From positions 1,550,001-1,614,000 of the forward strand of contig NZ_CP119424.1 in assembly GCF_029223585.1 (NCBI RefSeq): a stretch of 64,000 nucleotides of DNA. The letters are read 5' to 3'. The notes beneath the pieces were generated by a model. That model ran no database searches. It saw only the letters and a list, made by a program, of their open reading frames with translations, and was not told where the DNA came from. A program made the position numbers and the translations under genes. Each line of letters begins with the position of its first letter. Position 1 is the first letter of the stretch. The DNA comes from Photobacterium sp. DA100. Its GTDB lineage: Bacteria; Pseudomonadota; Gammaproteobacteria; Enterobacterales; Vibrionaceae. Positions 3,996 to 48,628 of this stretch are shown here, piece after piece.

Positions 3996-5348
3996 TTATA
4001 CTGCTGTAATTTTTTCAACGACCATACGCTGGTATTCGCCGTTTAACTTATATGTTTTGACGTAGATAAATGCACTCATTGCGACCAACAATGTCGGAAT
4101 ACCAATCATCAAGATGCGCAAGCCAAGAATTGTTTCAGCTGCCTGCTCAACATTCGGAACGTAGCCAATCATGGTAAGTCCGATACCCACGAAAAAGCCT
4201 GACAGGGCCCCGGCGAATTTCACCAACATAGTCTGAACCGAGAAGATAATACTTTCGCTGCGGTGGCCAGTTTTATACTCACCATAATCCACAACATCTG
4301 CCAGCATAACCGTTGAAAGACCATTGGATAGACCGCCACCGAATTTCAATGCCGCACCGGCGACACCAACCAAAATGCCATTTTCTGGCGCGAACAGGCC
4401 AGTAAAAATAAGTACTACGCTACAGAGCATTGGGAAGCCACATGCCACCAACCACATATGCTTTCGATTAATGATGTTACACAAGCGAGGGAATAAAAAT
4501 ACACCGGCAATTTCAGCCACACCCGAAAGTAGTGCAAACATCGGGAATAAGTCTTCTCGACCAATAGCATAAGTAAAGTAGTAAATAGCAAATCCACCAA
4601 CCAGCTGGATGGCAATATTAAAACTTAAGACAACGCCGATGAGAGATTTAAGCTGGTCGTTTTCACTAATAATCTTCTTCACATCATGAAGACTAAATTT
4701 TTCGGTGGTAACTTTTTTATCTTTTATGACTTCTTTGACATTAAAGAAAGTAATGAGCGCACTGGCAATAAACGCAACGACAATTGCAAGACTCAAGTAT
4801 AAAAAGCCACTGCCTTTGTCTTCACCACCAAAGAAACCAACCACATAGAGGCCATAAGTACCCATTAACATCCAAGCAAAGCTGGCAAACAGGCGCGGCC
4901 ATACCACCAGCCTTTCACGCTCTGCCCGTTCTTTCGACATGGATGGAATCATCGACCAGTATGGAATATCCATGATGGTATAGGTAATACCCCAGAGTAT
5001 ATAGGTAACCGTGGCGTAGACATATAAAGCCATCCCCTCAAAGTAATGGGTGCTAAACACCATCACCAGAAATACCGAGTTGACTAAGGTGCCAATGACA
5101 ATCCAAGGCCTAAATTTACCAAATCGTGAACGGGTATTATCTACCACCATTCCCATAATAGGGTCTGTTACGGCATCAACAAACCTGGCGACTAAAAATA
5201 GCGTACCGACAAATGCCGCAGGAATACCAGCAACATCGGTATAATAAAACATCAGGAATATATAAATAATCGAACAAGCAAAGTCTTTACCTAAAGCCCC
5301 TAAGCCATAAGACACTTTAGTTTTTAACGATATTACGCCTTCAGACAT
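3996..5348 (-). CDS. GPH-family sugar:cation symporter, MelB-like
   Basis: A 450-residue protein with 12 predicted membrane helices. The first 120 residues are very close to E. coli MelB as I remember it: KVSYGLGALGKDFACSIIYI, YYTDVAGIPAAFVGTLFLVA, then FVDAVTDPIMG, whose two aspartates match the cation-binding aspartates of MelB, then NTRSRFGKFRPWI. The inner-membrane role is uptake of a galactoside coupled to Na+ or H+. It sits between the porin and beta-galactosidase genes of one operon; the sugar is therefore probably a beta-galactoside or galacto-oligosaccharide rather than melibiose, since no alpha-galactosidase is nearby. Confidence 0.85.
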   Translation of the reverse strand: MSEGVISLKTKVSYGLGALGKDFACSIIYIFLMFYYTDVAGIPAAFVGTLFLVARFVDAVTDPIMGMVVDNTRSRFGKFRPWIVIGTLVNSVFLVMVFSTHYFEGMALYVYATVTYILWGITYTIMDIPYWSMIPSMSKERAERERLVVWPRLFASFAWMLMGTYGLYVVGFFGGEDKGSGFLYLSLAIVVAFIASALITFFNVKEVIKDKKVTTEKFSLHDVKKIISENDQLKSLIGVVLSFNIAIQLVGGFAIYYFTYAIGREDLFPMFALLSGVAEIAGVFLFPRLCNIINRKHMWLVACGFPMLCSVVLIFTGLFAPENGILVGVAGAALKFGGGLSNGLSTVMLADVVDYGEYKTGHRSESIIFSVQTMLVKFAGALSGFFVGIGLTMIGYVPNVEQAAETILGLRILMIGIPTLLVAMSAFIYVKTYKLNGEYQRMVVEKITAV

Positions 5349-5417: not shown

Positions 5418-8483
<3,066 letters not shown>

Positions 8484-9229: not shown

Positions 9230-10696
9230 ATGGCAGAACATTATAGTCAAGCTTATCGGACACTAGTACAAAGTACTTTTGGTCCAACCGAAAGTGATAT
9301 AAATAACTTTATCTCATGCTCAAGTGTTTCAGAATGGGTTGAAAGCCAAAAAAAACTAACTCCGACTTCATGGCAAAGTCTTTTCGAGTACCAGCAAGAA
9401 AACCATTCTAAGCCCGGTTGGACTGACGTCCACCTGAATTGTAGTTGGATGTACATGACCGTTGAAAAGAAAGATATTTTACGTCAGCGTATCGCCTATA
9501 TCTTCACGCAGTTATTCGTTGTCAGCAAAAGAGTACCGACCTTAAGCAGCCATGATAAGAAAGTTGCTTTTGCTCATTACTATGACCAATTAGCCAATAA
9601 TTGCCTCGGCACGTTCAGAACCACGCTTGGTGCTATGGCTCAGCACGCGGTCATGGGTGAGTTTTTAACTTACCGAGATAACAACTATGTCGAAGGAAAA
9701 AGCCCTGATGAGAACTTTGCCCGTGAGATTTTACAGCTCTTCACCATAGGGCCATATTTACTCAACCTGGATGGAACACCTGTAATGGACAACCTTGGTC
9801 GAGAAGCCCCAAGTTATAGCCAGCAAGACATTGAAAACTTAGCCCGCGTATTTACCGGCTGGAAGCTTGATGACAGTGACTGGCTCAAGCCGATGATCGA
9901 TAGCGGGACGCACGATCCTGACAGTAAAAGTGTATTTGGATTGGAAATCCCTGCCGGATTGAGTGCCAAAGATGAAATGCATCTGGTGCTGGATATGCTC
10001 AGCAGCCACCCAAACACCGCACCATTTATTGCCAAATTTTTCATCAAAAAAATGGTCACTGCAAATCCGAGTCCGGACTACGTCAAACGGGTTGCGACAG
10101 AATTTAACCGTACCAACGGCGACATGTCGGCCACTATCACCGCGATTCTAGATGATCAAGAAGCGCAGCTCGTGGGCGGAAAATATGGTGGAAAACTGCG
10201 TGAACCAGAAATTGTATTTATCCACGCACACCGTGCTTTGGGCATGCAGCGAAAAACGGGGCAATTAATTTGGGATAATTTGTATTCATGGCGTGGGCAG
10301 CGTTTCTGGCCAATGGCTGCACCATCGGTATTTTACTATTACCAACCAGATGACTCGCCGACTGACGGTAATTTCGATAATCATGCTAGTCCTGAATTTG
10401 CCGTTTATAACTGGATAGATTGCCACTACTACCATGACCAAATTCGTCGGGCTTGTCATCAACACGGAATAGAGTATGACTTTTCTGAGCTCAAATCCTT
10501 ATTCGAAAACTTCGAGGATGATGCACTGATTGATAAACTCGATCAGCAGCTATTTGGCTATACCATGCCAGAAAAAGTTCGGTCAGCTGTACGCAAGTAC
10601 CTCATAGCAACACCCAGCAACCGAAATAGCAATACCAGACTGTGGCAGCTATTTATCCAATTAATCTTTTCACCTACATTTCACACCCAGGGTTAA
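9230..10696 (+). CDS. DUF1800 family protein
   Basis: A 488-residue protein recognised as DUF1800 by its opening LVQSTFGPT, the central NFAREILQLFTIGPY, the ENLARVFTGWK segment and the late PEIVFIHAHRALG helix. Function in the family is unknown; the genes nearly always sit next to DUF1501 genes, as here (only three bases separate stop and start). No signal peptide is visible, while the partner has a twin-arginine signal, so co-export as a complex or a cytoplasmic role are both open. The ATG at 9230 is preceded by AGGAAAAGTA. It is divergent from the galactoside operon and may or may not share its control. Confidence 0.85.
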   Translation: MAEHYSQAYRTLVQSTFGPTESDINNFISCSSVSEWVESQKKLTPTSWQSLFEYQQENHSKPGWTDVHLNCSWMYMTVEKKDILRQRIAYIFTQLFVVSKRVPTLSSHDKKVAFAHYYDQLANNCLGTFRTTLGAMAQHAVMGEFLTYRDNNYVEGKSPDENFAREILQLFTIGPYLLNLDGTPVMDNLGREAPSYSQQDIENLARVFTGWKLDDSDWLKPMIDSGTHDPDSKSVFGLEIPAGLSAKDEMHLVLDMLSSHPNTAPFIAKFFIKKMVTANPSPDYVKRVATEFNRTNGDMSATITAILDDQEAQLVGGKYGGKLREPEIVFIHAHRALGMQRKTGQLIWDNLYSWRGQRFWPMAAPSVFYYYQPDDSPTDGNFDNHASPEFAVYNWIDCHYYHDQIRRACHQHGIEYDFSELKSLFENFEDDALIDKLDQQLFGYTMPEKVRSAVRKYLIATPSNRNSNTRLWQLFIQLIFSPTFHTQG

Positions 10697-10699
10697 GCT

Positions 10700-12457
10700 A
10701 TGAAACTATCTCGACGAAATTTTATTAAATCAAGTATCAGTGGTATTGGCATCTCTACCCTGGGAATGAGTAGCCCCCTAGCCCAAGCTTTCGGTACTTG
10801 TGAACCCAAACAATACCGAGCTCTCATCGCAATTAATTTGTCGGGCGGGAATGACGGCTTTAATATGTTTATCCCACGAGAGACAGCTAGCTATCACGAA
10901 TATTCCATAGCCAGAGCAAAGTTGGCGATCTCGATTGACGACATCATTCCGCTGTACCTAAACGATGACCCCAACCAACTTGGCCTGCATCCGGCTCTGG
11001 CCCCGCTGCAACCTTTTTTCGATCTGGGGCTTGCCGCTCCTGTCGTAAACACAGGTCCACTGTTACAACCAGTGACAAAGACACAGATTCAAAATGATCC
11101 ATCATTGCTGCCCGACAAGCTCTATGCACATAACTATCAATCGCAAATAGTTCAAACCAATACAGGGGCAACTCTCAAACAAGACGGCTGGGGCGGCGAA
11201 GGGCTTGACTTAGTGCTAAGTAGCCTTAGTGACACTTCGTCGATGTACTCGATGTCATCATCGTCAAATATATGGGCGTATTCAAGGAACATCACGCCCA
11301 ACCTGTTGGGTAACTCCCTGCCACCAAACTTCAACTTTGATGGCCACCAACAGGCGGAAGATCTATTCAATGACCTCCGTAAAACAGACTCAGTAGACAG
11401 CAATATTCACCGCCAGTTTTTCAGCACTGAAAGCCTCAGGGCTCGCGAACAATATGCGCTTTTCAGTGGCATTATCTCTGATGATAATGACCTTGGTTTT
11501 CCTAGCTCCGACTTTGGCAAGCAATGTCGCCGTGTCTACCAAATGATCAAAGAGCAAGCTCAGTTATCACAAGCCGTTCAATGCTTCTCCCTCAATCTAG
11601 GAGGGTTTGATACCCACTCAAATCAACTAAAGTATCAGCACAACCTATTAGACACCCTCGCAACCAGCCTGGCCACCTTATTTAGCAAGCTTAAGGATGA
11701 CGGACTGGCCGACAATGTCACGGCCTTTACATTTTCTGAGTTCGGCCGAACCTTAGAACCAAATGACTCTGGCACAGACCATGGCTGGGGGAGTAATCAC
11801 CTGGTTATGAGTGGGGACTTGAACGGCGGCCAAGTATTTGGCCAATGGCCATCACTCGTGGTTGATGGCGAGCAATCACTCAGTCGCGGTCGAATGATCC
11901 CAACCCTCGCCAGTGATCAGCTTCATGCCACGCTTCTCAACTGGTTGGGGGTGTCGAGTGATGGCCTAGACTACCTATTCCCTGCTCTGGAAAAATTTAA
12001 CCCGCAGTTACTCCCGCTATTTACAAGCTGCGGCGGCGGGGTCGATGATTATCAAGTGATCCCGCAATCCATTGAAGCCGAACAACAAAAAGATGATGAG
12101 CCGCCTATCCATGCGGTTGATGGGCAATTAGCAACCAAGTGGTCGGCCAAAGGACTCGGGATTCCCTTTACCTTACATTTCGACAAACCACACCAGCTTC
12201 ACACCTTGAAAGTGGCGCAAAACAAAGGAGACCAACGTCAGTACTTCTTTACCGTCGAATATAGCGAGGACGGAACGGTATTTAACAGGCTCACCGAAAT
12301 CATTACGCCGGGAAATAGTGATCTGCTCGTTGAACTACCTTTAGGGAGTGTTTCGGCCCAAAGTATCCGCTTAGTCTGTAACGGCAACAACGACCCAGAC
12401 GACAAGCGCCTAAGGGAATGGAACAATTTCAGAATCATTGAGGTATGGGCCCGCTAG
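10700..12457 (+). CDS. DUF1501 protein with Tat signal and C-terminal discoidin-like domain
   Basis: A 585-residue protein. The N-terminus MKLSRRNFIKSSISGIGIST is a twin-arginine signal, so it is exported folded. Residues about 35-430 are DUF1501, an alkaline-phosphatase-superfamily-like fold (INLSGGNDGFNM, SLNLGGFDTHSNQ, FSEFGRT, DHGWGSNH, PTLASDQLHATLLNWLGV). Residues about 445-585 look like an F5/8-type (discoidin) carbohydrate-binding module (AVDGQLATKWSAKG, FTVEYSEDGTVF, SIRLVCNGN). Function is unknown; DUF1501 proteins resemble sulfatases/phosphatases but their reaction is not established. The binding module suggests action on a glycan or cell surface. Translationally coupled to the DUF1800 gene. 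Confidence 0.85.
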   Translation: MKLSRRNFIKSSISGIGISTLGMSSPLAQAFGTCEPKQYRALIAINLSGGNDGFNMFIPRETASYHEYSIARAKLAISIDDIIPLYLNDDPNQLGLHPALAPLQPFFDLGLAAPVVNTGPLLQPVTKTQIQNDPSLLPDKLYAHNYQSQIVQTNTGATLKQDGWGGEGLDLVLSSLSDTSSMYSMSSSSNIWAYSRNITPNLLGNSLPPNFNFDGHQQAEDLFNDLRKTDSVDSNIHRQFFSTESLRAREQYALFSGIISDDNDLGFPSSDFGKQCRRVYQMIKEQAQLSQAVQCFSLNLGGFDTHSNQLKYQHNLLDTLATSLATLFSKLKDDGLADNVTAFTFSEFGRTLEPNDSGTDHGWGSNHLVMSGDLNGGQVFGQWPSLVVDGEQSLSRGRMIPTLASDQLHATLLNWLGVSSDGLDYLFPALEKFNPQLLPLFTSCGGGVDDYQVIPQSIEAEQQKDDEPPIHAVDGQLATKWSAKGLGIPFTLHFDKPHQLHTLKVAQNKGDQRQYFFTVEYSEDGTVFNRLTEIITPGNSDLLVELPLGSVSAQSIRLVCNGNNDPDDKRLREWNNFRIIEVWAR

Positions 12458-12503: not shown

Positions 12504-12706
12504 TCACTACACCTGTAAGCGACAACCGCTACCTTAACGCTCGCACTACAACTGCTGTCTCACCGCCCGCAAAATTTACACTAGCGTATTAGTTGGCCTG
12601 CTACTATTAGAGTGAGATTTTACCTAGCGGGTTGTATGGATTGATGGACTTGTCAAACTTGCTGGCACTTTGATGGTAATGCAACCTTAACTAAAAGGTG
12701 CACGAT

Positions 12707-14323
12707 ATGATTGGCAGAGGGTACAAGGATTACATTAAATCGGCTCAAGCTACAGACACACGGACCTTTGATACCATCATAATCGGCTCTGGGACCGGCG
12801 GAATGAGTGCCGCTTCCTTTTTAGCCCAAGCCGGCAAGCGCGTGCTTCTGCTAGAGCAACATACCGTACTCGGCGGATATTCCCATACGTTTAGCCGCAA
12901 GGGATATGCCTGGGACGTTGGCTTACATTATGTGGGGCAAGTTCATATCAAGGGCACTGCACTAAACAAGGTGTTTCGCTATATTTCGCAAGACAAGCTC
13001 CAATGGGCCCCCCTCGATGACATCTATGACCGGGCAATCTTTGGTGACGACGAATACGATTTCCCCAGAGGACGGGAAAACCTTAAGGCGAAACTAAAAC
13101 AATACTTCCCCGCCGAGCAGGACAAGGCCTCGATCGACAAGTACTTCGCTTTACTCGATCAAGCCCAACAACTTGGTAGCGGCTATTATGTCGAAAAAAC
13201 CCTCCCCCCGTTTCTGGCTAAACTCTTCGGCGACTTTCTCCGCCGCAGCACACTCAAGCTATCCGACAGAACCACATTGGAAGTATTAAGGGAAATCACT
13301 GACAATCCCAAGCTGATTGGTGTATTAACCTGCCAATATGGTGATTACGGTTTAGAGCCATCGAAGAGCAGCTTCTATATGCATGCTCTGCTTGCCAATC
13401 ACTATATGGAAGGGGCCGGTTATCCTGTAGGCGGGGCTTCGAAACTCGCCGAGTGTGTTGTTCCAATTATTGAGCACTCGGACGGGGTGGCCCTAACCCA
13501 AGCCGATGTGCGCGAGATTATTGTCGAAAACAATAAAGCAATAGGCGTCCGCATGAGTGACGGTGAAGCCTTTTACGCCAGTACGGTTGTCAGCGCCACC
13601 GGCATTGTCAGTACCTACTCATGCCTGCTGCCTAATGAAGTACGCCAGCAGCACCAGCTCGACACCCTCATAGACAAGTTCGAGCCTGCCACGGCACATG
13701 CCGGATTATATATCGGCATCAAAGAGCCGCCATCGGCACTGAACTTGCCCAAATGCAATTACTGGATTTTTCCCCAGCAGTACGATCATGACCGAGGGCG
13801 CGCTGAGTACAAGGATTTCTCCTGCCCGCTTCCGGTCGCGTTTGTCTCGTTCCCCTGGGCAAAAGATCCTGCCGCACAGCAGGCACACCCCGGCAGAAGC
13901 ACCGCCGAAGTGGTGATTCTGGTGCCCTATGGCTGGTTTGCCCAATGGGAAAATACAACATGGCAGAAGCGGGGCGAAGAGTATAATGCGCTCAAAGAGC
14001 ATCTCGCACAGCAAATGTTAGAGCAGCTGTACCGTGTGGCTCCGCAGCTGAAAGGAAAAGTCGATTATTACGAAGTCTCGACCCCGCTCAGTACAAGCCA
14101 CTTTTCCCACCACCAGCAAGGTGAGATCTACGGTCTCGCCCACTCACCGCAACGCTTCCGGCAAAAATGTCTGCGCATACATACCCCGGTAACCAATCTA
14201 TTTCTCTCGGGGCAGGATGTGATGACGGCAAGCATCGCCGGCGGCACCATGGCAGGGCTACTTTGCGCGTCGACAATTTTAAAGAAAAATTTACTATGGA
14301 CCGTCAACAAAACAATGAGATAG
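12707..14323 (+). CDS. FAD-dependent oxidoreductase, retinol saturase/phytoene desaturase (CrtI) type
   Basis: About 538 residues. A Rossmann FAD site GSGTGG lies at residues 27-32, followed by the LLLEQHTVLGGYSHTFSRKG segment and DVGLHYVG that typify the retinol saturase branch of the CrtI superfamily; the end carries NLFLSGQDVMTASIAGGTMAG, the C-terminal FAD-binding signature. Such enzymes saturate, desaturate or isomerise conjugated lipophilic polyenes. I placed the start at the ATG 12707, six bases after AAAAGGTG, instead of the in-frame GTG 12698 that lies inside that ribosome-binding site. The gene overlaps the next one by 28 bp, implying coupled translation. No carotenoid synthesis genes are in the window, so a fatty acid or other imported polyene is a likelier substrate; this is inference. 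Confidence 0.8.
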   Translation: MIGRGYKDYIKSAQATDTRTFDTIIIGSGTGGMSAASFLAQAGKRVLLLEQHTVLGGYSHTFSRKGYAWDVGLHYVGQVHIKGTALNKVFRYISQDKLQWAPLDDIYDRAIFGDDEYDFPRGRENLKAKLKQYFPAEQDKASIDKYFALLDQAQQLGSGYYVEKTLPPFLAKLFGDFLRRSTLKLSDRTTLEVLREITDNPKLIGVLTCQYGDYGLEPSKSSFYMHALLANHYMEGAGYPVGGASKLAECVVPIIEHSDGVALTQADVREIIVENNKAIGVRMSDGEAFYASTVVSATGIVSTYSCLLPNEVRQQHQLDTLIDKFEPATAHAGLYIGIKEPPSALNLPKCNYWIFPQQYDHDRGRAEYKDFSCPLPVAFVSFPWAKDPAAQQAHPGRSTAEVVILVPYGWFAQWENTTWQKRGEEYNALKEHLAQQMLEQLYRVAPQLKGKVDYYEVSTPLSTSHFSHHQQGEIYGLAHSPQRFRQKCLRIHTPVTNLFLSGQDVMTASIAGGTMAGLLCASTILKKNLLWTVNKTMR

Positions 14324-15555
14324 ATCTGAATCAGCGCATTGCCATCCTAGGGGCTGGCGCGGCAGGGCTCACTGCTGCTGAAGCTCTGAAACAAAAAGGC
14401 TATCAGCATATCACTGTCTTTGAGCGCACCGATCATGCCGGCGGAAAATGCCTCAGTGTCGATATCGCCGCAAAAACCTATGAACTTGGGGCGGGAATTT
14501 TGACCGAGAATAACACCGTGCCTCTTCGGTTGGCGAAAAAGTATGCGATCCCCTTTGAACGGGCACATTTTGGCCAGAGTATCTTCGTTGACCAGAACGG
14601 CCAGCCCATCCCTTCGCAGTCATTGGCGCTCAAACTCAAAGTGCTTTGGCAACTGTTCTTTCGCTATCGGCGTATACTCAAACGGTACAACGAGCTGGCG
14701 TCCCCCGGGTTTCGCAATCTTTCCCCGGCAATTACCTTGCCCTTTGATCAATTTTCAAAAAAATACAAAATTAGTGATTTAGCCAATGTCTTCAGTTTAT
14801 TTCTCTCCGGCTTTGGCTACTGTTATTCCGATCATGTGCCAACCGCCTATGTCCTTAAGTACGTCAACTGGAAAACGATTGTTGCCTACTTAAAAAATCA
14901 AGTGTACACCTTTCCCAACGGCATACAGGGGCTATGGACTCGTGTCGCCAGACAGCATGATGTTCGATTCAAGGCAGAAATAAGCCAAATCAGCCGGGCT
15001 GAAACCATAACAATTGACACAGAGTCCGGGAGAGAAGAGTTCGACAAACTAATTGTGACAACGCCTTTGGACGAAACCGCGTTGTTTATGGACTTGAGCC
15101 TGCAAGAGCAGACACTGTTTAAAAAAATCCAGTACCTGGACTACCAAACCATTCTTTGCACGGTTAACAATTTTGTTGAAAAAACCGGCTACGTGCCAGA
15201 GAACTTTTGTCGAGAGCGAGAAGGCCACCCCGTATTTTGGTACTACCGTCATGCCGGGCAGCCCGTCTACTCTTTTTATGTTCTAACCGATAAAAACATC
15301 AGCGAAAAAGAAGTCACCGACAACCTGCGAACGTTTGTCCATCAAATGGGTGGCGAAATAGAGTCTGTCCATCAATTCATTCACTGGAAATACTTTCCCC
15401 ACGTCGAAACCGATGAGCTTAACAAGGGGTTTTACGACAAGCTCAATCAGCTACAGGGAAACCAGCACACCTTCTACGCCGGCGAGATCCTCAATTTCAG
15501 CTGCGTGGGCTTCACCAGTGAATATGCCGAATACATCGTAAACCAGCATTTTTAA
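14296..15555 (+). CDS. FAD-dependent polyenoic fatty acid isomerase-like protein
   Basis: About 419 residues from the ATG at 14296; the longer in-frame upstream stretch reads across the previous gene and is not conserved-looking. FAD-binding GAGAAG is at residues 19-24, then FERTDHAGGKC. The whole protein recalls the Cutibacterium (Propionibacterium) acnes linoleate isomerase PAI: the opening ERTDHxGGKC, the middle VPTAYVLKYVNW, and the end YFPHVxxxxxxxGxYxKxxxxQGxxxTFYAGEI align residue by residue with what I remember of that enzyme. PAI makes conjugated linoleic acid by moving a double bond using FAD without net redox. The partner upstream is a saturase-like FAD enzyme, which would fit a polyunsaturated fatty acid isomerise-then-reduce route. 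Family call is good; substrate is inference. Confidence 0.75.
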   Translation: MDRQQNNEIDLNQRIAILGAGAAGLTAAEALKQKGYQHITVFERTDHAGGKCLSVDIAAKTYELGAGILTENNTVPLRLAKKYAIPFERAHFGQSIFVDQNGQPIPSQSLALKLKVLWQLFFRYRRILKRYNELASPGFRNLSPAITLPFDQFSKKYKISDLANVFSLFLSGFGYCYSDHVPTAYVLKYVNWKTIVAYLKNQVYTFPNGIQGLWTRVARQHDVRFKAEISQISRAETITIDTESGREEFDKLIVTTPLDETALFMDLSLQEQTLFKKIQYLDYQTILCTVNNFVEKTGYVPENFCREREGHPVFWYYRHAGQPVYSFYVLTDKNISEKEVTDNLRTFVHQMGGEIESVHQFIHWKYFPHVETDELNKGFYDKLNQLQGNQHTFYAGEILNFSCVGFTSEYAEYIVNQHF

Positions 15556-15643: not shown

Positions 15644-16279
15644 TTAATAGCAAGCCTTAAACGCTTCAATATACGCTTTAGCGTTGCCCCGGATCTGCTC
15701 TAATGTCATACCCGGCTTGTAAAGCGCCGCACCAAGGCCAAAACCTTGCGCGCCAATCTCCATGTACGGCTTCATACTATCTACACTTGGGCTGATGCCA
15801 CCGACAGGCAAACAAATGGTGTCTGGCGGCAATACGGACTTCAGCGCCTTGAACCCTGATGTCCCCAGCACAGTGACCGGGAACAACTTGAGGCCGGTCG
15901 CTCCGGCTGCCAAGGCCGCGAACGCCTCAGTTGGTGTCACAACACCCGGGAAGGTCACGCACCCAGCCTCGACAGACATTTCAACTACCTCTTGATGATA
16001 GTTGGGCGTAACGACCAAGTTAGCCCCCGTATCGATCACTTGCTGGGCAAGTTCTGGCGTTGTCACTGTACCGGCACCGATGTAGAAATCGCTACCGAAA
16101 TGGTCTACCAGCTTTTTGATGCTCACTAGCGCGTCAGGGCTATTGAGCGGGACCTCAATCATGGTGAAGCCCTCTTCAATAAGCACTTGTGCCACATCAA
16201 CCACATCAGACGGTGTGACACCACGGATGATTGCCACCAACGGCAGGTTATCAGCTAAGTTAAATGCTTTAGTGGTCAT
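15644..16279 (-). CDS. dgoA: 2-dehydro-3-deoxy-6-phosphogalactonate aldolase
   Basis: A 211-residue class I aldolase of the KDPG/KDPGal family. Visible: LVAIIRGVTP at the start, the E in IEVPLNSP, GAGTVTTPELAQ, and the Schiff-base lysine in GLKLFPVTVLG. The VPLNSP signature is that of DgoA rather than Eda. It splits KDPGal into pyruvate and glyceraldehyde 3-phosphate. Its start overlaps the end of the kinase gene by 11 bp, and it is last in the operon that begins with the IclR gene. Confidence 0.9.
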   Translation of the reverse strand: MTTKAFNLADNLPLVAIIRGVTPSDVVDVAQVLIEEGFTMIEVPLNSPDALVSIKKLVDHFGSDFYIGAGTVTTPELAQQVIDTGANLVVTPNYHQEVVEMSVEAGCVTFPGVVTPTEAFAALAAGATGLKLFPVTVLGTSGFKALKSVLPPDTICLPVGGISPSVDSMKPYMEIGAQGFGLGAALYKPGMTLEQIRGNAKAYIEAFKACY

Positions 16280-17192
16280 GTTTCATTACCTCCTGGATAG
16301 CAGCCATTCCGGCAATGAAACAGTCATCGCCATTAATGTAAGTTGATTCAATATCTAGTGCCTGGCAGGCAAGTTGGTAGCGAGCACATAGCTTGCTGCC
16401 ACCGACTAAATACACCTGTTTTTGTTGCACAGTTAGGGCTTTAAGCTCATTGCCAATCAGCACACCCGAGAGATAATCAGAAACTTCGTCTTCGGCAATG
16501 TTGTTGAATAAACGGTGAGTACGAGCCATGAACAAGGTATTGGTAAGCTGTTCAGCCTGTCCGTCTGCCACCCCTTTCAAAAAGGCTGTATGGTTAAGCG
16601 GCAAAGTATTTTCAGGTAAACCTCGTGCCAAAATGGTGTGCTTTGAAACCACTGAAAATAGCTCGCCCGTCATGTAGGACGAAAAAGACGTTAGTTCGCC
16701 ATTGCTTAGTACTGCATGCTTACTGTGAGTACCCGGCATAACTGCAGTTAAATCCAGTCTGCCCGTTAGTCTGGCAAGACCAAACAGTTGAACCTCTTCA
16801 CCACGCATGACATCAAACATGCCCGTACCGGACTGATGGCTGACACCAGGAACTATAGTTGCCAATGCCCCCCAAGGTAGCTCGAAACGATAGGCTTTAT
16901 CGGCAAGCTGTGATGCATTTACTGACGTCGATGCATAATCAACATTGACCCACCCCTGCTGTGAACCCACCATACCTGCCATAAAAATTGGCAGATGCTT
17001 ATACTCGGCTAGCCAGCCTGACAACACATCTTCCAGCTCAGAGGCAAACTCACCTTCCTTTACTTGAAGCAAGCCCAGTGACAGCTCAACCTTATCAAGT
17101 ACGTCGCCTTTTGCGTCCATCGCAAAAGCGCGAAAGTTTGTTGTTCCCCAATCAATGACGAGCCAATGTGCCGGTATTTGTTTTTTAATCAT
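16269..17192 (-). CDS. dgoK: 2-dehydro-3-deoxygalactonokinase
   Basis: A 307-residue sugar-acid kinase of the DgoK family. Seen: VIDWGTTNFRAFAMD at the N-terminus (nucleotide-binding loop), PIFMAGMVGSQQGW, VPGVSHQSGTGMFDVMRGEEVQLFG (shared by DgoK proteins) and AVMPGTHSKHAVL. It phosphorylates 2-keto-3-deoxygalactonate for the overlapping DgoA gene downstream. The presence of both fixes the pathway intermediate as KDGal, which constrains what the enolase-family enzyme upstream can make. Confidence 0.92.
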   Translation of the reverse strand: MIKKQIPAHWLVIDWGTTNFRAFAMDAKGDVLDKVELSLGLLQVKEGEFASELEDVLSGWLAEYKHLPIFMAGMVGSQQGWVNVDYASTSVNASQLADKAYRFELPWGALATIVPGVSHQSGTGMFDVMRGEEVQLFGLARLTGRLDLTAVMPGTHSKHAVLSNGELTSFSSYMTGELFSVVSKHTILARGLPENTLPLNHTAFLKGVADGQAEQLTNTLFMARTHRLFNNIAEDEVSDYLSGVLIGNELKALTVQQKQVYLVGGSKLCARYQLACQALDIESTYINGDDCFIAGMAAIQEVMKHDH

Positions 17193-17212
17193 TCAATAAG
17201 ATCCCTACCATT

Positions 17213-17230
17213 GCCCCGCTATCACGGGGC
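17213..17230 (-). other. Intercistronic stem-loop before dgoK
   Basis: A six-bp GC stem GCCCCG / CGGGGC with a six-base loop sits in the 60-bp gap between the enolase-family gene and dgoK. No strong T run follows on the coding strand. Confidence 0.5.
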
Positions 17231-17252
17231 AAAATATAAAAAAATTAGAGCG

Positions 17253-18398
17253 TTAGTTGATCTTATAGCGTTCGATGATCTCACGATTAACATCTACGCC
17301 AATACCCGGTTTGGTCGAAATTTGCACCTTGCCATCAACCATATTGATGCCGTCGCAAATCAGATCCTTGCGGAATGGATGTGATGATTGGTCATATTCC
17401 AACATTGGCTCGATAGGATTAAGTGACAATGGTGCCGCTGGCAATGAAGCAATGAACTGCAATGATGCAGCAATGCCAATGCCCGACCCCCAGACATGCG
17501 GGATCATGCGGGTATTGTTCGCCTGTGCCATCGCCGCGATTTTCTTACACTCCGTAATACCGCCTGACGAGCAAAGATCCGGTTGAATAATGTCCAGAGC
17601 ATTGCCTTCCAACCACGGGCGGTAACCCGTTTTGCCAAAAACCTGCTCGCCGGCTGCAATGTAGGTTTTCGACAGGTTCTTGATCTGCTGGTAGCCTTCC
17701 AGATCTTCAGGAGCCAGGAGCTCTTCAAGGAAATACGGGTTGTACTCTTCAGTTTCCTTGATGATGCGACGTGCCGCCCCGACACTGTAGGCCCCGTTGG
17801 CATCAGCCATGATCTTCACCTCCTCACCCACCGCTTCGCGGATAGCGCGGATCAACGCGATATCTTCCTCGATACCGAAGCCAATCTTCAGCTTGAACGC
17901 ACCGAATCCCGATTCAACATGGCGGTGGGCTTCATCAATAGAATCGGCAGGATACGTTGCCCCATCGACACGGTAGAAACCGGTCGCGTAAGGTGTCACC
18001 TCTTTACGGAACGCCCCACCAATCAATTTGTGGATAGGCTGGTTGAGTGCTTTACCCATGATGTCCCACAATGCGATATCAACACCGCTGATAGCATTAA
18101 CCGCCGAGCCTCCTTGGCCGTATGGACGAGTCAGGTTGTACATCTCTTCCCACAGCACTTCGACATCAAATGGGTCGCGGTTTAGCAGTAGTGGCTTGAA
18201 CGCATGCTCAATGAAAGCAGCGGCAATGTGAGGAGGCTGCAGGCCATGGCAAAGAGCTTCACCAAAGCCGCTAATCCCCTCGTCAGTCACAATCTCCACA
18301 ATCAGCGAGCTACGGTTATGTACCCAGCCCTGCGAGAAATAAAACGGCTGCTCCAGCGGTACAGAAATCGCGTGCGGAATAACGTCAATAATTTTCAT
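17253..18398 (-). CDS. Enolase-superfamily sugar-acid dehydratase or cycloisomerase (Gci-like)
   Basis: A 381-residue protein of the mandelate-racemase group. Visible: capping N-domain, the KxK base motif in FKLKIGFGIEEDI, metal ligands at IMADANGAY (Asp), FLEELLAPEDLEG (Glu) and AAGEQVFGK (Glu), and a His in IPHVWGSGIGIAASLQF. Long stretches match Agrobacterium D-galactarolactone cycloisomerase (Gci) as I recall it: DIIQPDLCSSGG, NPIEPMLEYD, HPFR and KPGIGVDVNRE. However, the flanking DgoK/DgoA need 2-keto-3-deoxygalactonate, not a keto-deoxyhexarate, so the natural reaction may be dehydration of galactonate or opening of a galactonate-type lactone or anhydro acid. Superfamily is certain; substrate is open. 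Confidence 0.85.
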   Translation of the reverse strand: MKIIDVIPHAISVPLEQPFYFSQGWVHNRSSLIVEIVTDEGISGFGEALCHGLQPPHIAAAFIEHAFKPLLLNRDPFDVEVLWEEMYNLTRPYGQGGSAVNAISGVDIALWDIMGKALNQPIHKLIGGAFRKEVTPYATGFYRVDGATYPADSIDEAHRHVESGFGAFKLKIGFGIEEDIALIRAIREAVGEEVKIMADANGAYSVGAARRIIKETEEYNPYFLEELLAPEDLEGYQQIKNLSKTYIAAGEQVFGKTGYRPWLEGNALDIIQPDLCSSGGITECKKIAAMAQANNTRMIPHVWGSGIGIAASLQFIASLPAAPLSLNPIEPMLEYDQSSHPFRKDLICDGINMVDGKVQISTKPGIGVDVNREIIERYKIN

Positions 18399-18410
18399 AG
18401 TGTTACCTTT

Positions 18411-19679
18411 TTAAATCAGAGCCAGAGACAGTTGCGGAATGAAGATGACAAATAGCAGGGCAATTAGCATAGCGACGAAGAATGGCACAATGGCTTTCGA
18501 CAGACGCTCAACGGAGATCCCAGACACACTCGAGCCGACAAACAGGTTCAAGCCAAGCGGTGGGGTAATAAAGCCAATCGCCAATGTCACCACCATGATG
18601 ATACCGATGTGCACGGGGTTAAATCCGAACAGCATGGCAACCGGTACCAGGATTGGTGTCAGGATGATGATCGCGGCAACCGTTTCCATGAAACAGCCGA
18701 CAACCAGCAGAAGCGCAACCATCAGCAGAATAAAGACAATCTTGCTGTCAGAAAACGCCAACATGGCATTGGCAATTTGAGTCGGGATTTGCTCAAGGGC
18801 CAAGTACTTGCCGAAGGCTGTCGCCGTACCGACAATCAACAATACAATCACAGAAGTCAGCACTGACTTGGTGAATATTTGCGGCAGATCCTTGAACGTG
18901 ATTTCCTTGTAGACAAACAAGCTAACAACCAGGCCGTAAACCACTGCAACCACACTGGCTTCGGTCGGGGTGAAGATACCGCCATAGATCCCCCCCAGAA
19001 TAATCACCGGGATCAGCAGGGCAAGCTGGGCATGCTTAAGCTGCTCGAACACTTCTTTAAGCGAGAACGGTTCACCGGAGCCTTTGTAGCCTTTCTTCTT
19101 AGAATAAATGTACGCCCACACAATCAAACAGAACGTTACAAGCAGGCCAGGAACCACACCGGCAATAAACAAGTCACCAATCGATGTGCTGGCAGACACG
19201 CCGTACATCACCATTGGGATGCTCGGTGGGATCATCACCCCAATCGCACCGGCAGCCGTGACGACGGCGGTAGCGAAGCCTCGGTCATAGCCATATTTGA
19301 TCATTGCCGGGATCATGATGCCACCCACGGCCGCTACCGTTGCCGGACCTGAACCCGAAATCGCCGCGAAGAACATACAGGTAATGATTGAGGCTATCGC
19401 AAAGCCACCAGTGATGTTTTTCACCAGCGAGTTGGCAAAGTTCACCAAGCGCTGTGAGATACCGCCGCTTCCCATGATGTCACCGGCCAAGATGAAGAAC
19501 GGCACTGCCATGATTGGGAACGAGTCCACCGATGTGATCAATGTGCTGACAAGAAAGTCGACACTCAAATTGCCCGTAGACAAAATCGTTACCAAGGTTG
19601 CAATACCCAATGCAATCGCAATCGGCACGGTGTAGATCACCAAGAAGGCAAAGGTTGAAAAAAGAATAAATATAGACAT
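18411..19679 (-). CDS. TRAP transporter large permease subunit (DctM family)
   Basis: A 422-residue, about 12-helix inner-membrane protein. Seen: MAVPFFILAGDIMGSGGISQRLVNF, AISGSGPATVAAVGGIMIPAM and GVMIPPSIPMVMYG, all standard in DctM/SiaM proteins. It forms the transport channel with the DctQ-type subunit 11 bp upstream and takes up an organic or sugar acid driven by Na+. Ends 12 bp before the enolase-family gene, so one transcript is likely. Confidence 0.93.
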   Translation of the reverse strand: MSIFILFSTFAFLVIYTVPIAIALGIATLVTILSTGNLSVDFLVSTLITSVDSFPIMAVPFFILAGDIMGSGGISQRLVNFANSLVKNITGGFAIASIITCMFFAAISGSGPATVAAVGGIMIPAMIKYGYDRGFATAVVTAAGAIGVMIPPSIPMVMYGVSASTSIGDLFIAGVVPGLLVTFCLIVWAYIYSKKKGYKGSGEPFSLKEVFEQLKHAQLALLIPVIILGGIYGGIFTPTEASVVAVVYGLVVSLFVYKEITFKDLPQIFTKSVLTSVIVLLIVGTATAFGKYLALEQIPTQIANAMLAFSDSKIVFILLMVALLLVVGCFMETVAAIIILTPILVPVAMLFGFNPVHIGIIMVVTLAIGFITPPLGLNLFVGSSVSGISVERLSKAIVPFFVAMLIALLFVIFIPQLSLALI

Positions 19680-19690
19680 GCTTCCCTTCC

Positions 19691-20188
19691 TTATTCGCTG
19701 GCTTTTGCATGTTGCAGCTTGAGTGCTTCAAGCTCATCAAAAGTGATGACCATCTGCTGGATCAAACGGAATGACGTAAGTGCAAAGCCAACGGGCCCTG
19801 CCAGATACACAATCCACATTGGCAACCCCAGAGCTGGCGATGTTTGACCAAGGTGATAGAGCTCCAGCACCATTTGAGTCGAATGGAACAGGATGAAGGA
19901 CGAGAAGGCAAAGAATACCAAGTCAGCCAATAGCGACAGGTATTTCTTTTCTTTTTCATCCAACACCATTGCAATTGCATCAATCTTAATATGGCACTTA
20001 CGCGAAGCGGCAAAACTTACACCGATATATACCAGCCAAATAAAACAATAGCGGGCAAGCTCTTCTGTCCATGACAGTGAAATATCTAATGTCCGGGTCA
20101 CGACCTGAGTAAATATCGCGACAACCATGACAGCAAGTAAAATACAGGCCAGTGTATTTTCCAAGTATTTGTCTAACCATTTAATCAT
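19691..20188 (-). CDS. TRAP transporter small permease subunit (DctQ family)
   Basis: A 165-residue protein with four membrane helices. ISLSWTEELARYCFIWLVYIG and FAASRKCHIKID are typical of DctQ. I chose the ATG at 20186-20188, which follows AAGGAAAACCTT and directly begins MIKWLDKYLENTLACILL, over a longer in-frame version that starts further upstream inside a stem-loop. Works with the DctM and DctP genes around it. Confidence 0.9.
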   Translation of the reverse strand: MIKWLDKYLENTLACILLAVMVVAIFTQVVTRTLDISLSWTEELARYCFIWLVYIGVSFAASRKCHIKIDAIAMVLDEKEKKYLSLLADLVFFAFSSFILFHSTQMVLELYHLGQTSPALGLPMWIVYLAGPVGFALTSFRLIQQMVITFDELEALKLQHAKASE

Positions 20189-20200
20189 AAGGTTTTCCTT

Positions 20201-20232
20201 ATTCCGCCCGGCATCACTTGCCAAGCGGAAAT
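20201..20232 (-). other. Intercistronic stem-loop between dctP- and dctQ-like genes
   Basis: Outer arms ATTCCGC / GCGGAAAT and inner arms GGCA / TGCC enclose TCACT in the gap between the solute-binding protein and the small permease genes. Such hairpins after a binding-protein gene commonly keep its message more abundant than that of the permease; here that is inference. Confidence 0.55.
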
Positions 20233-20255
20233 ACCGATAGAGTGGTTTATTTTAA

Positions 20256-21311
20256 TTACTGAACTGCTGATTCTTTTTCTGCTTTGGCGATTTCTTTAGT
20301 GAATGAATCAATAATGTCACCACCGATCACATCACGGTATTTATCAACCACAGATTCAGTCGCCTTGCGGAATTCACTGCGCGCTTCCGGTGTAAGTTCT
20401 GTCACCTGCATATTGGCTTTAATAGTTGCCAAGCTATCATTATTGACACGACGGTTGACTTCACGCTGGTAGTCTCCGGCTTCAATCGCCGCCTGGCGCA
20501 CTGCCGCCTGATCATGAGCACTTAGCTTGTTCCAACTTGCCTCGCTGAAAATAAGTACCAACGGAGTATACACGTGGCCAGTATCTGTCATCTGCTTCTG
20601 TACTTCGTACAGGTTGTTGAGGGCAATATTCGGGTATGGGTTTTCCTGGCCATCAACCGTTCCCTGCTGAAGAGCGGTAAACAATTCGTTGAATGCCATT
20701 GGCGTTGGCGTTGCGCCAAGAGCCTTCCACGCATCAAGGTGAAGCGGACTTTCCATGGTACGTACCTTCAGGCCTTTCACATCATCAACACTGGTCACCG
20801 TACGGCGCGAGTTGGTGAGATGACGGAAACCATTTTCCCAGAAGTCCAGGCCAATCAAACGACGGGACTGAAGCATTTCCAGCATATCGCCGGCAAAATC
20901 GCTACGCAGTACTTTATCAGCAACGGCTTCATTCGGAATCATAAAAGGAAGATCAAAAACATTATATTCCGGATAAAAGTTTGCCAATGGCGCCGTCGAT
21001 GGAATCGACACATCTAGGGTGCCCAATTGCAACATTTCAATGGCTGCCCGGTCATCGCCTAATTGTGCTGACGGATAAATATCAACGGTTAAATCAGTTG
21101 TTTTTTCTACTAATTCTTTAAATTTACTTGCACCATCATAAATAGGATGCTGGGTATTAGAACTCATACTAAAGCGCAGCGTTTTTATTTGTGACTCACA
21201 GGCTAAATTTGCGGTATTTGTTGTGTTATTGCCATTCGTTACAATAGCGGCACCAATAATGGAGGCGATAAAAAGCCCACCAATGGCTAGAATTTTACCT
21301 GATCTAGACAT
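20256..21311 (-). CDS. TRAP transporter solute-binding protein (DctP family)
   Basis: A 351-residue periplasmic protein with an N-terminal hydrophobic signal/anchor (ILAIGGLFIASIIGAAIV). Seen: LRFSMSSNTQHPIYDGASKF, IYPSAQLGDDRAAIEMLQLG, and the conserved arginine in GLKVRTMESP that usually binds the ligand carboxylate, then QQGTVDGQENP. Substrate is unknown but the downstream DgoK/DgoA indicate a galactonate-like sugar acid. It is the first transporter gene after the IclR regulator. Confidence 0.92.
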   Translation of the reverse strand: MSRSGKILAIGGLFIASIIGAAIVTNGNNTTNTANLACESQIKTLRFSMSSNTQHPIYDGASKFKELVEKTTDLTVDIYPSAQLGDDRAAIEMLQLGTLDVSIPSTAPLANFYPEYNVFDLPFMIPNEAVADKVLRSDFAGDMLEMLQSRRLIGLDFWENGFRHLTNSRRTVTSVDDVKGLKVRTMESPLHLDAWKALGATPTPMAFNELFTALQQGTVDGQENPYPNIALNNLYEVQKQMTDTGHVYTPLVLIFSEASWNKLSAHDQAAVRQAAIEAGDYQREVNRRVNNDSLATIKANMQVTELTPEARSEFRKATESVVDKYRDVIGGDIIDSFTKEIAKAEKESAVQ

Positions 21312-21337
21312 AGTATCTTCCTAATAGGTCTTTATAT

Positions 21338-21355
21338 ATAACGATAGTTCGTTAT
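21338..21355. promoter_or_regulatory. Perfect palindrome between iclR-like and dctP-like genes
   Basis: ATAACGA-TAGT-TCGTTAT is an 18-bp perfect inverted repeat, AT-rich and without a T tract, in the 53-bp gap before the solute-binding protein gene. It may be an operator or a weak RNA hairpin. Confidence 0.4.
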
Positions 21356-21364
21356 GGGTAGAGT

Positions 21365-22090
21365 TTAATTAAGTTGTTCAGATATCTTCTGACTATATGA
21401 TTTCATTAAGGGAATAAGTGCCTGCATTCTTTCATCAGGCATATACTCTTTAATACTGGTAACGGAAATAGCAGCAATAATATTGTTGTATTTGTTGCGA
21501 ATAGGTACTGCTACACATCGTACGAGATCTTCATTATCTTCAAGATCAAAGCTGTAATCGTTCTTGGAGTATTCTTCCATTCGTGAAAGCATGGCTTCCA
21601 GATCAACGCCCTGTTGTTTTTTGATTAGGCGTTGCCACTCCATTTTCGGCATATCAATCATCAACGCCTTCCCCACGCCGGTTGCCGCCATCGGCAGCCG
21701 GTCACCCACTTGGGAACGCAGTTGTATCGCCCTTTCGCCCGGGATCTTATCGAGATAGAAGATCTCGTCTTCGTCTTTGATCCCGAGGTGCACAGTGTCC
21801 TTCGTCTCTTCTGCCAATGCACGCAAAAAAGGCTTGGCAATTTCTTTCAGCGGCATATCTTGCTGGGCGCGGATCCCCAGCTGGATCATCTTAGTGCCCA
21901 AGACAAGACCGATACCCTTCACTTCTCGAATGTAACGGGCTTCAATCAGCCCCTGCAAAATACGGTGAACAGTAGACTTTGGTAAATCCAGCAGATCGCA
22001 AATATCTTTTAATTGGCGGTGGCCATCGGCAATCGCGTCGATAACCGCGATGGCTTTGTTTAATGCCTGATTGCCTTGTTTTGAACCCAT
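21365..22090 (-). CDS. IclR-family transcriptional regulator
   Basis: A 241-residue protein: winged helix-turn-helix in residues about 5-65 (LDLPKSTVHRILQGLIEARY) and an effector domain with GERAIQLRSQVGDRLPMAATGVGKALM. The start was set to the ATG at 22088-22090 behind GGGGGT, because the helix-turn-helix starts right after it and the upstream in-frame stretch covers the operators. IclR proteins usually control adjacent catabolic genes and respond to small acids; this gene heads the TRAP-dgoKA gene set and two inverted repeats lie just upstream, so auto- and operon control is likely. Confidence 0.9.
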   Translation of the reverse strand: MGSKQGNQALNKAIAVIDAIADGHRQLKDICDLLDLPKSTVHRILQGLIEARYIREVKGIGLVLGTKMIQLGIRAQQDMPLKEIAKPFLRALAEETKDTVHLGIKDEDEIFYLDKIPGERAIQLRSQVGDRLPMAATGVGKALMIDMPKMEWQRLIKKQQGVDLEAMLSRMEEYSKNDYSFDLEDNEDLVRCVAVPIRNKYNNIIAAISVTSIKEYMPDERMQALIPLMKSYSQKISEQLN

Positions 22091-22160
22091 ACTGACCCCC
22101 CAATCTCTGATGGTGTAAATATAGCGTGCTGCAATTCGATAAAATGTGATGATGGTCAAC

Positions 22161-22198
22161 GTTCCATTTTGCGGAATACTGTTCCCACATAGTGGAAC
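22161..22198. promoter_or_regulatory. Tandem IclR-type operators
   Basis: Two inverted repeats start exactly 20 bp apart: GTTCCATTTTGCGGAAT (22161-22177) and GTTCCCACATAGTGGAAC (22181-22198). The TTCC...GGAA form matches sites bound by several IclR proteins. They lie 71-108 bp upstream of the regulator start, consistent with autoregulation. Confidence 0.6.
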
Positions 22199-22493
22199 TC
22201 CCACATAATAGTCGCTCGCTCACACTCACTGCCGGTATTTCAATGACGTCAAAGCGATCAAATTCGCCCGGTTATAATTTATAAAGCACTGCTTATTTTA
22301 CAAAATATAACCATTCATCCTGCCTGTTAAATACTGTTCAGCAGATATGTAACTAAAATCAACTTCCCCTTAAGGGCAATATTGACGCATAGCAACCAGT
22401 GGAATAACATCGCTAAACTCATGATTTGCAAAGGTATTATCATACCCGCTTAGCATAGTCGTGTAATATCCTGAAAAGCAATACGGAAAAAGT

Positions 22494-35760: not shown

Positions 35761-37074
35761 ATGGCAACAGGTTTATTTCTTTTCCAAAATGATCTTAGAC
35801 TACACGACAACCCTGCACTCGCCCTAGCCACTCAAGAGGCCGATCACCTCATCTGCGTCTACTGTTTGCCCGTCGATCACCTCAATCGTTACCCTTACCA
35901 TATTGGTAAGCCTGGAACCTACCGTCACCAGTTTCTCTTACAATCACTCCACAACCTGGCCGAGCAACTCAGCGAATGCGGTCAGAGTTTGCACGTGATG
36001 CTAGATCACCCACTCAACGTGTTGCCGGAATTAATCGGTCAGTACAATGTCTCTATGATTTATACCAGCGAGCATGCTGGTGTGTATGAACAACGTAACT
36101 GGTACACCCTAAAAGGAAGGTATCCCTACATCACTTTCCGAAACATTGCTACACATACCCTGTTTGATAAAACTGATCTGCCTTTTGAAATAACAGAGAC
36201 ACTTCCCGATACCTTCAGCCAGTTTCGCAAGCAGGTTGAACACCTTGAAATTCGTCCCCCCTTAACCAGCATTGCTAAAATGCCGACTCCACCAGGTAGA
36301 TTAAAGGCCTTTGACATTACCAGTGCCATGATCAACCCAAAGCTTCTGGGCCATTTTGATGGTGGCGAAACCGCAGCCCTTCGACACCTTGAAAACTACT
36401 TTTCTTCCCGAGCTGCAAGCCGCTACAAATTGACCAGAAATGAACTGGATGGCTGGGAAAACTCCACCAAATTTTCGCCTTGGTTGGCCTTAGGCTGTCT
36501 TTCTGCCAACAAGCTGATCCAACGCCTGCAGAGCTATGAACATAACGTCGAGTGCAATGAATCCACCCAATGGATTAAGTTTGAGCTGTTGTGGCGGGAA
36601 TACTTCCAGTGGTATGCCCACCACCACGGACCAAAACTCTTTACTTTTGGCGGTATCAAATCGACCCCACCCCATACCGCATTTTATCCAGAGCGCTTCC
36701 GCCGCTGGAGTGAAGGAAATACCCCTTATCCCCTGGTCAATGCCTTAATGAACCAGCTAAGGCGAACCGGTTATATGTCTAACCGTGGCAGGCAAATTGC
36801 TGCTAGCTGCATGGTTAATGAGCTCAGCCTAGATTGGCGGTACGGTGCCGCGTTTTTTGAAGAACATCTTATTGACTACGATACCGCATCAAACTGGGGA
36901 AATTGGCAATACATCGCTGGCGTCGGAGCTGACCCGCAGCACGGCCGCCACTTCAATTTGAACAAACAAACTGAACTCTATGATCCAAATGGCGAATTTA
37001 TCCGTAGGTGGGAAGGGAACAACTATGACGGTAATATCGACTCTGTCGATGCTGCTGATTGGCCTATTCGATAA
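35761..37074 (+). CDS. Cryptochrome DASH / single-strand photolyase
   Basis: A 437-residue member of the photolyase/cryptochrome family. N-terminal photolyase alpha/beta domain (LFLFQNDLRLHDNPALALA), then the helical FAD domain: ASRYKLTRNELDGWENSTKFSPWLALGCLS, ELLWREYFQWYA, RTGYMSNRGRQIAASCMVNE and YDTASNWGNWQYIAGVGADP followed by GRHFNL(N)KQ. These are diagnostic of the DASH group. Binds FAD and an antenna folate; repairs cyclobutane dimers mainly in single-stranded DNA or acts in light sensing. It is 21 bp upstream of a second photolyase gene, in one apparent operon. Confidence 0.93.
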   Translation: MATGLFLFQNDLRLHDNPALALATQEADHLICVYCLPVDHLNRYPYHIGKPGTYRHQFLLQSLHNLAEQLSECGQSLHVMLDHPLNVLPELIGQYNVSMIYTSEHAGVYEQRNWYTLKGRYPYITFRNIATHTLFDKTDLPFEITETLPDTFSQFRKQVEHLEIRPPLTSIAKMPTPPGRLKAFDITSAMINPKLLGHFDGGETAALRHLENYFSSRAASRYKLTRNELDGWENSTKFSPWLALGCLSANKLIQRLQSYEHNVECNESTQWIKFELLWREYFQWYAHHHGPKLFTFGGIKSTPPHTAFYPERFRRWSEGNTPYPLVNALMNQLRRTGYMSNRGRQIAASCMVNELSLDWRYGAAFFEEHLIDYDTASNWGNWQYIAGVGADPQHGRHFNLNKQTELYDPNGEFIRRWEGNNYDGNIDSVDAADWPIR

Positions 37075-37095
37075 CAACGCAGAGACAGGTGCCAG

Positions 37096-48178: not shown

Positions 48179-48269
48179 TGGCGGAGAGATAGGGATTTGA
48201 ACCCTAGATACGCTATTAACGTATGCCGGTTTTCAAGACCGGTGCTTTCAACCACTCAGCCATCTCTCC
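48179..48269 (-). tRNA. tRNA-Ser (anticodon TGA)
   Basis: Read on the minus strand, a 91-base class II tRNA starts GGAGAGATGGCTGAGTGG, has anticodon loop CTTGAAA (anticodon TGA, reading UCA and related Ser codons), a long variable arm, T arm GGGTTCAAATCCC and encoded CCA. Acceptor arms GGAGAGA / TCTCTCC pair fully. Its 3' end appears to have been used as an integration site. Confidence 0.96.
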
Positions 48270-48311: not shown

Positions 48312-48628
48312 GCCCCAATGAGTTCAACTGCTCAGTGTCTGAACAATTTATCTCACCTGACCCGAATCTGCTTAATTTGCCACTTCAGCTAAAACAAACC
48401 CAGCCAAATAAAACCTTGTCCAAATATCCATACAATTAATCAGTCTATGAAGCAAGCTCACAGAATAGCACTGGTTTGCTCGCACTATTCCATTAACATT
48501 ATAAATAGAAGCAACATACACCTTTACTTGAAACCTTGGAGGTATTTTCCCCGCTGTAAGCCACTGAATAAAAAACCATAAGTAAATGGCTATTATCAAT
48601 CCTCTTGAAATCGATAAGGGAATTATCC
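48312..48628. other. Intergenic region between tRNA-Ser promoter and M60-like gene
   Basis: No gene is seen. AAGGGA before the ATG at 48629 serves the protease gene. Confidence 0.35.

Follow-up and report, generated by a model that had tools for sequence, protein, structure and literature searches.

Gene pair and surroundings

The window analysed here, a stretch of 64,000 nucleotides (G000:C2:1550001-1614000), comes from the 6.0-Mb genome of Photobacterium sp. DA100, which is assembled in two contigs, and contains two plus-strand genes that share part of their sequence (Table 1). An earlier note, made from the letters of this DNA alone, had proposed that the two genes overlap by 28 bp and that both products carry an FAD motif at the N-terminus. 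Indeed, the reading frames overlap at 14296-14323, and the motifs are IGSGTGG in the first protein and LGAGAAG in the second. Both genes have other in-frame start codons, namely a GTG at 12698 as an alternative start of the retinol saturase (RetSat)-like gene, and a further ATG upstream, at 14167, for the PAI-like gene. A ribosome-binding site, AAAAGGT (12693-12699), is found 7 bases ahead of the ATG at 12707.

Table 1. Features of the gene pair and of the stretch ahead of it.
Feature	Coordinates	Strand	Basis
Upstream stretch, in part common to other Vibrionaceae copies	12570..12706	+	Alignment of five upstream regions
Retinol saturase/CrtI-like FAD oxidoreductase, 538 aa	12707..14323	+	ORF, ATG 12707 to stop 14323
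PAI-like FAD isomerase (predicted), 419 aa	14296..15555	+	ORF, ATG 14296 to stop 15555
28-bp overlap of both reading frames	14296..14323	+	Overlap compared among Vibrionaceae copies

When starts are matched, the overlap is 28 bp in four of the five Vibrionaceae copies, counting that of the window, and 34 bp in the remaining one, and in two distant carriers the spacing between the genes is -31 or +2 (a Parcubacterium, L021) and +14 (a Bacteroidetes genome, L022). Translation of the two genes is probably coupled across the 28-bp overlap. Within 12570-12706, the sequence CTGCTAnTATTA occurs at 12598-12609, in a stretch that the five-region alignment shows to be partly conserved among the Vibrionaceae copies. 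It is possible that this region provides the pair with a promoter and leader of its own; a promoter scan of 12570-12706 found no sigma-70-like site, and a promoter function there is thus putative.

The pair lies between a lacZ-like gene upstream (5418-8474) and a minus-strand cluster downstream (15644-22204) that we named, from its sequence, as galactonate catabolism with a TRAP transporter. The same interval holds a DUF1800 gene (9230-10696) and, 3 bp on, a DUF1501 gene whose product carries an F5/8 type C domain at its C-terminus (10700-12457), together spanning 9230-12457. We considered these two genes as parts of the system and rejected them, because the pair is intact where they are reduced or absent: a sister genome (G025) retains only an ORF of 109 aa, in which 91 residues match DUF1501, and has no DUF1800 match, and neither gene was found in the 14-20 kb read around the pair in each of the other three Vibrionaceae carriers. 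The sister genome shares the surroundings of the pair, being the only other carrier with the galactonate genes and the lacZ-like gene. In the other three, no ORF of the stretches examined matched those of window positions 1-30000 except the pair itself and, in one genome (G314), an MFS_2 sugar transporter encoded immediately ahead of it; at 24% identity to the window protein encoded at 3999-5348, we take this likeness to reflect a common family and not a shared context. No lipid gene was recognised among the cassette neighbours that were scanned, a part of those in the five loci read.

Elsewhere in the window, a DNA photolyase gene is closely followed by one for a deoxyribodipyrimidine photolyase-related protein (35761-38661), and a tRNA-Ser (48179-48269) lies near a gene for a 1211-aa protein (48605-52240) with F5/8 type C domains and the IMPa helical domain of the immunomodulating metalloprotease family. 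The highest-GC stretch of the window opens with genes for cytochrome c oxidase (53483-56463), where subunit II carries a fused cytochrome c and overlaps subunit I by 1 bp.

Families of the two proteins

The polyunsaturated fatty acid isomerase PAI of Cutibacterium acnes shifts a linoleate double bond by passing a hydride to FAD and taking it back, to give 10,12-CLA, and the earlier note had recognised the second protein as similar to it over its full length. Sequence, profile and fold comparisons support this. In a sequence search of solved chains, PAI aligns with residues 9-417 (E 1.1e-55), and the motifs ERTDHxGGKC and QGxxxTFYAGEI are common to both proteins. In a profile search against solved proteins, PAI scores 352.8 bits and the next protein, CpaO, 70.1, placing PAI ahead by 283 bits, with the amine oxidases further behind. 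The fold is of the PAI type as well, PAI again being the nearest solved protein, 12.8 Z units ahead of CpaO and more of the amine oxidases. Pfam assigns the protein to Amino_oxidase, yet the clustering with unrelated amine oxidases that the note had named as possible counter-evidence is absent by sequence, profile and fold. The second protein is thus PAI-type in family and fold. In a quick tree with weak deep forks, PAI itself groups with a protein from Erysipelotrichaceae and away from those of the cassette.

The expectation that the active-site residues of PAI would be present holds in part. The positions of the PAI aromatic residues Phe168 and Phe193 are occupied by Phe173 and Tyr198, and Phe or Tyr is found at position 168 in 31 of 31 relatives (P0001-P0031) and 80 of 83 others (P0035-P0117), the figures for position 193 being 31 of 31 and 79 of 83, counts from which P0032-P0034 were left out; the farther P0118-P0120 have Phe at 168 but Leu or Met at 193. 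Arg88, which we take to be part of a carboxylate gate at the mouth of the channel, is lost and replaced by Gln94. The commonest letters at this position are H18 Q7 E3 N2 in the first set (n=31) and K26 R19 Q9 T6 in the other (n=83), in an alignment that is weak around this residue, to the extent that two alignments put Arg88 at different places.

The first protein belongs to the CrtI-type FAD protein family. Its Pfam matches are Amino_oxidase and NAD_binding_8, and its nearest solved chains by profile, both distant, are 4rep (1.6e-21), a gamma-carotene desaturase, and 4dgk (4.9e-20), a phytoene dehydrogenase; the protein is CrtI-type by this comparison. The best NCBIfam match is the carotenoid isomerase CrtISO (TIGR02730, 128.5 bits, below its cut-off of 586.9) and the second-best the CrtI phytoene desaturase family (TIGR02734, 111.5 bits, below its cut-off of 238.1). 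The GQDV ending noticed earlier is present as SGQDV close to the C-terminus. The putative link to retinol saturase, with the opening that the earlier note had likened to that enzyme, comes from names: 25 of the 120 relatives listed from a longer list of matches carry the automatic JGI name all-trans-retinol 13,14-reductase, while NCBI names among the relatives are 'phytoene desaturase family protein' and 'NAD(P)/FAD-dependent oxidoreductase', and none of the Pfam, NCBIfam and solved-chain matches bears the name retinol saturase. Known substrates of the CrtI/RetSat-type family are mostly carotenoids and retinol, and many CrtI-type enzymes desaturate or isomerise and do not saturate.

Conservation and distribution of the pair

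The PAI-like gene is found in 5 of 329 Vibrionaceae genomes (E 1e-60), each time with the RetSat-like gene directly upstream of it. The two genes are also adjacent in the metagenome-assembled genomes (MAGs) of the Parcubacterium and the Bacteroidetes organism. In a protein collection, the longest contig is equal in size to that of a listed RetSat-like cluster for 41 of the 120 PAI-like clusters listed, where jittered lengths (1000 trials) give a chance expectation of 0.6 on average and 4 at most. A forty-second coincidence, P0118, was dropped because its contig (2016 bp) is too short for both genes. Equal size is evidence of one contig and not proof, and the lists hold 120 of 178 and 120 of 1567 matches, with one PAI-like row lacking a contig size. 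The survey of co-occurrence proposed in the earlier note thus finds the pair together well outside this genome. Distances within the two families correlate (Mantel r 0.777 for 44 pairs, the largest of 2000 permutations reaching 0.27), and over the pair set the RetSat-like protein is better conserved (mean identity 64%) than the PAI-like one (48%). Among four Vibrionaceae copies, dN/dS is 0.065-0.122 across both genes and 0.068-0.122 in the RetSat-like gene, values that are rough because dS often exceeds 1. Both genes are under purifying selection, and the two are paired and diverge in a correlated manner, as in co-inheritance.

A scan of named genomes gave at least 80 loci, the first 17 of which (L021-L037) were used; the remaining 63 match at most query residues 1-258, mostly the nucleotide-binding motif alone. 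Further named carriers may exist beyond the matches listed, because one of the two scan patterns is a common Rossmann motif. Fifteen of the loci used (L023-L037) encode distant PAI-type proteins of at most 31% identity, and no RetSat-like neighbour was found in the DNA examined, some of these loci ending at contig edges; weak RetSat matches in two of them (L024, L029) are the PAI-like ORFs themselves.

In a sample of the class (E 1e-40), the window itself was the one carrier in 369 genomes; the PAI-like query found only the seed genome among 332 of the Parcubacterium's phylum, as did the RetSat-like query among 86 of its order. Together with the 5 of 329 in Vibrionaceae, these counts make the pair rare even where it is present, and it is no general trait of the Vibrionaceae. 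Among the matches listed, both proteins have their closest named relatives in Photobacterium and Vibrio; the named members of the cassette family are Patescibacteria, Parcubacteria, Uhrbacteria, Kerfeldbacteria, Photobacterium, Vibrio and Moritella, with one Azotimanducaceae and one Verrucomicrobiae MAG; and the named relatives outside the gammaproteobacteria are Patescibacteria in five of six rows for the PAI-like and six of six for the RetSat-like protein. In both trees, the gammaproteobacterial rows are nested among rows whose named members are Patescibacteria, and in one tree the Bacteroidetes and Verrucomicrobiae rows are farther out. Both trees are quick, the second is rooted on a single long-branched Bacteroidetes pair, and the rows are mostly metagenome contigs, so that a horizontal transfer and its direction are our reading of them. 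A search of plasmids gave only two distant matches, in Nostoc, and viral contigs gave three short remote matches and no relative over the full length.

Candidate reactions and related systems

Several observations bear on the substrate. A phytoene synthase match (PF00494) was found in one of seven carriers, the Bacteroidetes genome. PfaD is above the cut-off in 63 of 329 Vibrionaceae genomes, namely one of the five carriers and 62 of the 324 non-carriers; this test gave no connection with EPA/DHA production by the carriers themselves. The Parcubacterium MAG, of unspecified completeness, has no ketoacyl synthase match, while all 14 control genomes do. Most carriers thus lack marker genes of an endogenous polyene, and the substrate is probably scavenged, most plausibly a polyunsaturated fatty acid (PUFA) that the PAI-like enzyme would conjugate. 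A fatty acid desaturase match in five of the seven carriers leaves room for an endogenous diene. Rhodopsin (PF01036) has no match in the seven carriers; the control genomes are equally silent, so this shows nothing.

Some distant PAI relatives have acyl-lipid genes as neighbours: an acyl-ACP thioesterase and an AMP-binding ligase (L026), an enoyl-CoA hydratase, a thioesterase and an AMP-binding ligase (L028), and a patatin phospholipase (L035), whereas the single neighbour scanned at L033 is not an acyl-lipid gene. Nine loci were viewed and seven proteins of four loci chosen by eye for scanning, so these are examples and not a count. Saprospiraceae and Lewinella MAGs carry tandem PAI-like genes (L032, 6644-9320; L035, 6650-9323), those of L035 adjoining the patatin-type phospholipase gene.

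The reading that we favour, and hold tentatively, is a horizontally spread two-gene cassette that rearranges polyunsaturated lipids acquired from the surroundings. In this scheme, the PAI-like enzyme would move a hydride from a bis-allylic carbon of a methylene-interrupted PUFA to FAD and hand it back at a position two carbons on, so that a conjugated diene forms. Its partner, the presumably co-translated RetSat/CrtI-like enzyme, would then act on the conjugated system, most likely by saturating one double bond. The net result would resemble biohydrogenation and would clear reactive PUFA, dispose of electrons, or both. We infer the fatty acyl substrate, the order of the steps, reduction as the direction of the second, and the purpose, and likewise the coupling to a saturase. 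Reduction is our first choice for the second step, as in rumen linoleate biohydrogenation, where an isomerase is followed by a conjugated linoleic acid reductase (PMC4478896). Retinol saturase has also been suggested, in a paper on Caco-2 cells (PMC3299700), as an enzyme that might reduce a conjugated linolenic acid, a suggestion only. Several points count against the explanation: Gln94 stands in place of Arg88, many CrtI-type enzymes do not saturate, the best-scoring named model for the first protein is a carotenoid isomerase, albeit far under its cut-off, no lipid gene was recognised beside the cassette among the neighbours scanned in five loci, the cassette does not track EPA/DHA synthesis in its carriers, and the desaturase matches allow for an endogenous diene. 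We know of no activity for either cassette protein or any close relative.

The same acyl substrate could instead be desaturated by the RetSat/CrtI-like enzyme, which would lengthen the conjugation so that the pair makes a conjugated polyene. The two solved relatives, being desaturases, and the CrtI-type desaturase model as second-best NCBIfam match fit such a direction, but these matches are distant and far under the cut-offs, and the JGI names, though automatic, indicate a reductase; we regard desaturation as rather unlikely. It is also conceivable, if unlikely, that an isoprenoid polyene from outside (a retinoid, an apocarotenoid or a quinone tail) has a double bond shifted by the PAI-like enzyme and is reduced by the RetSat-like one. 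This would suit the carotenoids and retinol that make up most known substrates of the first protein's family and the phytoene synthase match of the Bacteroidetes carrier, and the replacement of Arg88 would permit a substrate with no free carboxylate; six of the seven carriers, however, lack a phytoene synthase match, and the acyl-lipid neighbours of some distant PAI relatives point the other way. Finally, the shared Pfam label Amino_oxidase might suggest an ordinary amine oxidase and an unrelated oxidoreductase that are neighbours by chance. This is highly improbable and already contradicted by the lead of PAI over CpaO, and the larger one over amine oxidases, and by the retention of the pair across phyla amid mostly different flanking genes.

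A broader version of the favoured reading, conjugation followed by saturation of scavenged PUFA, makes the cassette a mobile module for PUFA biohydrogenation, with the Patescibacteria as its chief reservoir. These ultra-small bacteria, unable to make fatty acids, would first conjugate and afterwards saturate the PUFA that they scavenge from a host or neighbour, either to dispose of electrons or to adjust and protect borrowed membranes, and a gammaproteobacterial marine lineage would have gained the module by inter-phylum transfer; we consider this whole scenario doubtful. To our knowledge, no such lipid-remodelling pathway is known for the Patescibacteria radiation, and none was found in the openly licensed literature searched.

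The two genes stay together even in very distantly related bacteria, and so may represent an unstudied two-step pathway on polyunsaturated lipids. The two protein families have been described before, as has one activity. The openly licensed literature searched, which most subscription journals lie outside, gave no account of the pair as a coupled unit, of how it is conserved or of how far it has spread. That literature also gave no bacterial retinol saturase in a fatty acid isomerase, phytoene or carotenoid isomerase context and, by title or abstract start, nothing fitting for a fatty acid isomerase in Vibrio. If the favoured reading is right, the pair is a compact, testable route from PUFA to conjugated and then more saturated acids. 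It would tie PAI-type enzymes to a second step, offer an activity for one group of bacterial 'retinol reductase' proteins and, through its spread between Patescibacteria and marine Vibrionaceae, open lipid handling in Patescibacteria to tests in a culturable host.

Compared with PAI (PDB 2b9w, 2bab), the PAI-like protein differs at Tyr369 (here Lys365) as well as at Arg88, and the cassette has a RetSat-like gene, none of which was found beside the distant PAI-type loci (L023-L037). To retinol saturase (all-trans-retinol 13,14-reductase), the first protein is linked by the automatic names and as a CrtI-type FAD protein, but it is bacterial and encoded together with an isomerase-like protein. 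Its profile similarity to the CrtI/CrtISO family, through 4rep, 4dgk and both NCBIfam models, comes with scores far under both cut-offs and, in six of seven carriers, no phytoene synthase match. We know of no partner gene for the polyenoic fatty acid isomerase of the red alga Ptilota filicina. That protein, a marine PUFA-conjugating enzyme (PMC7700177), would have marine PUFA conjugation in common with the cassette, by description and not by sequence. With linoleate biohydrogenation by Butyrivibrio in the rumen, in different organisms and in chemistry only, the cassette would share the proposed order of reactions, to conjugate and then to saturate.
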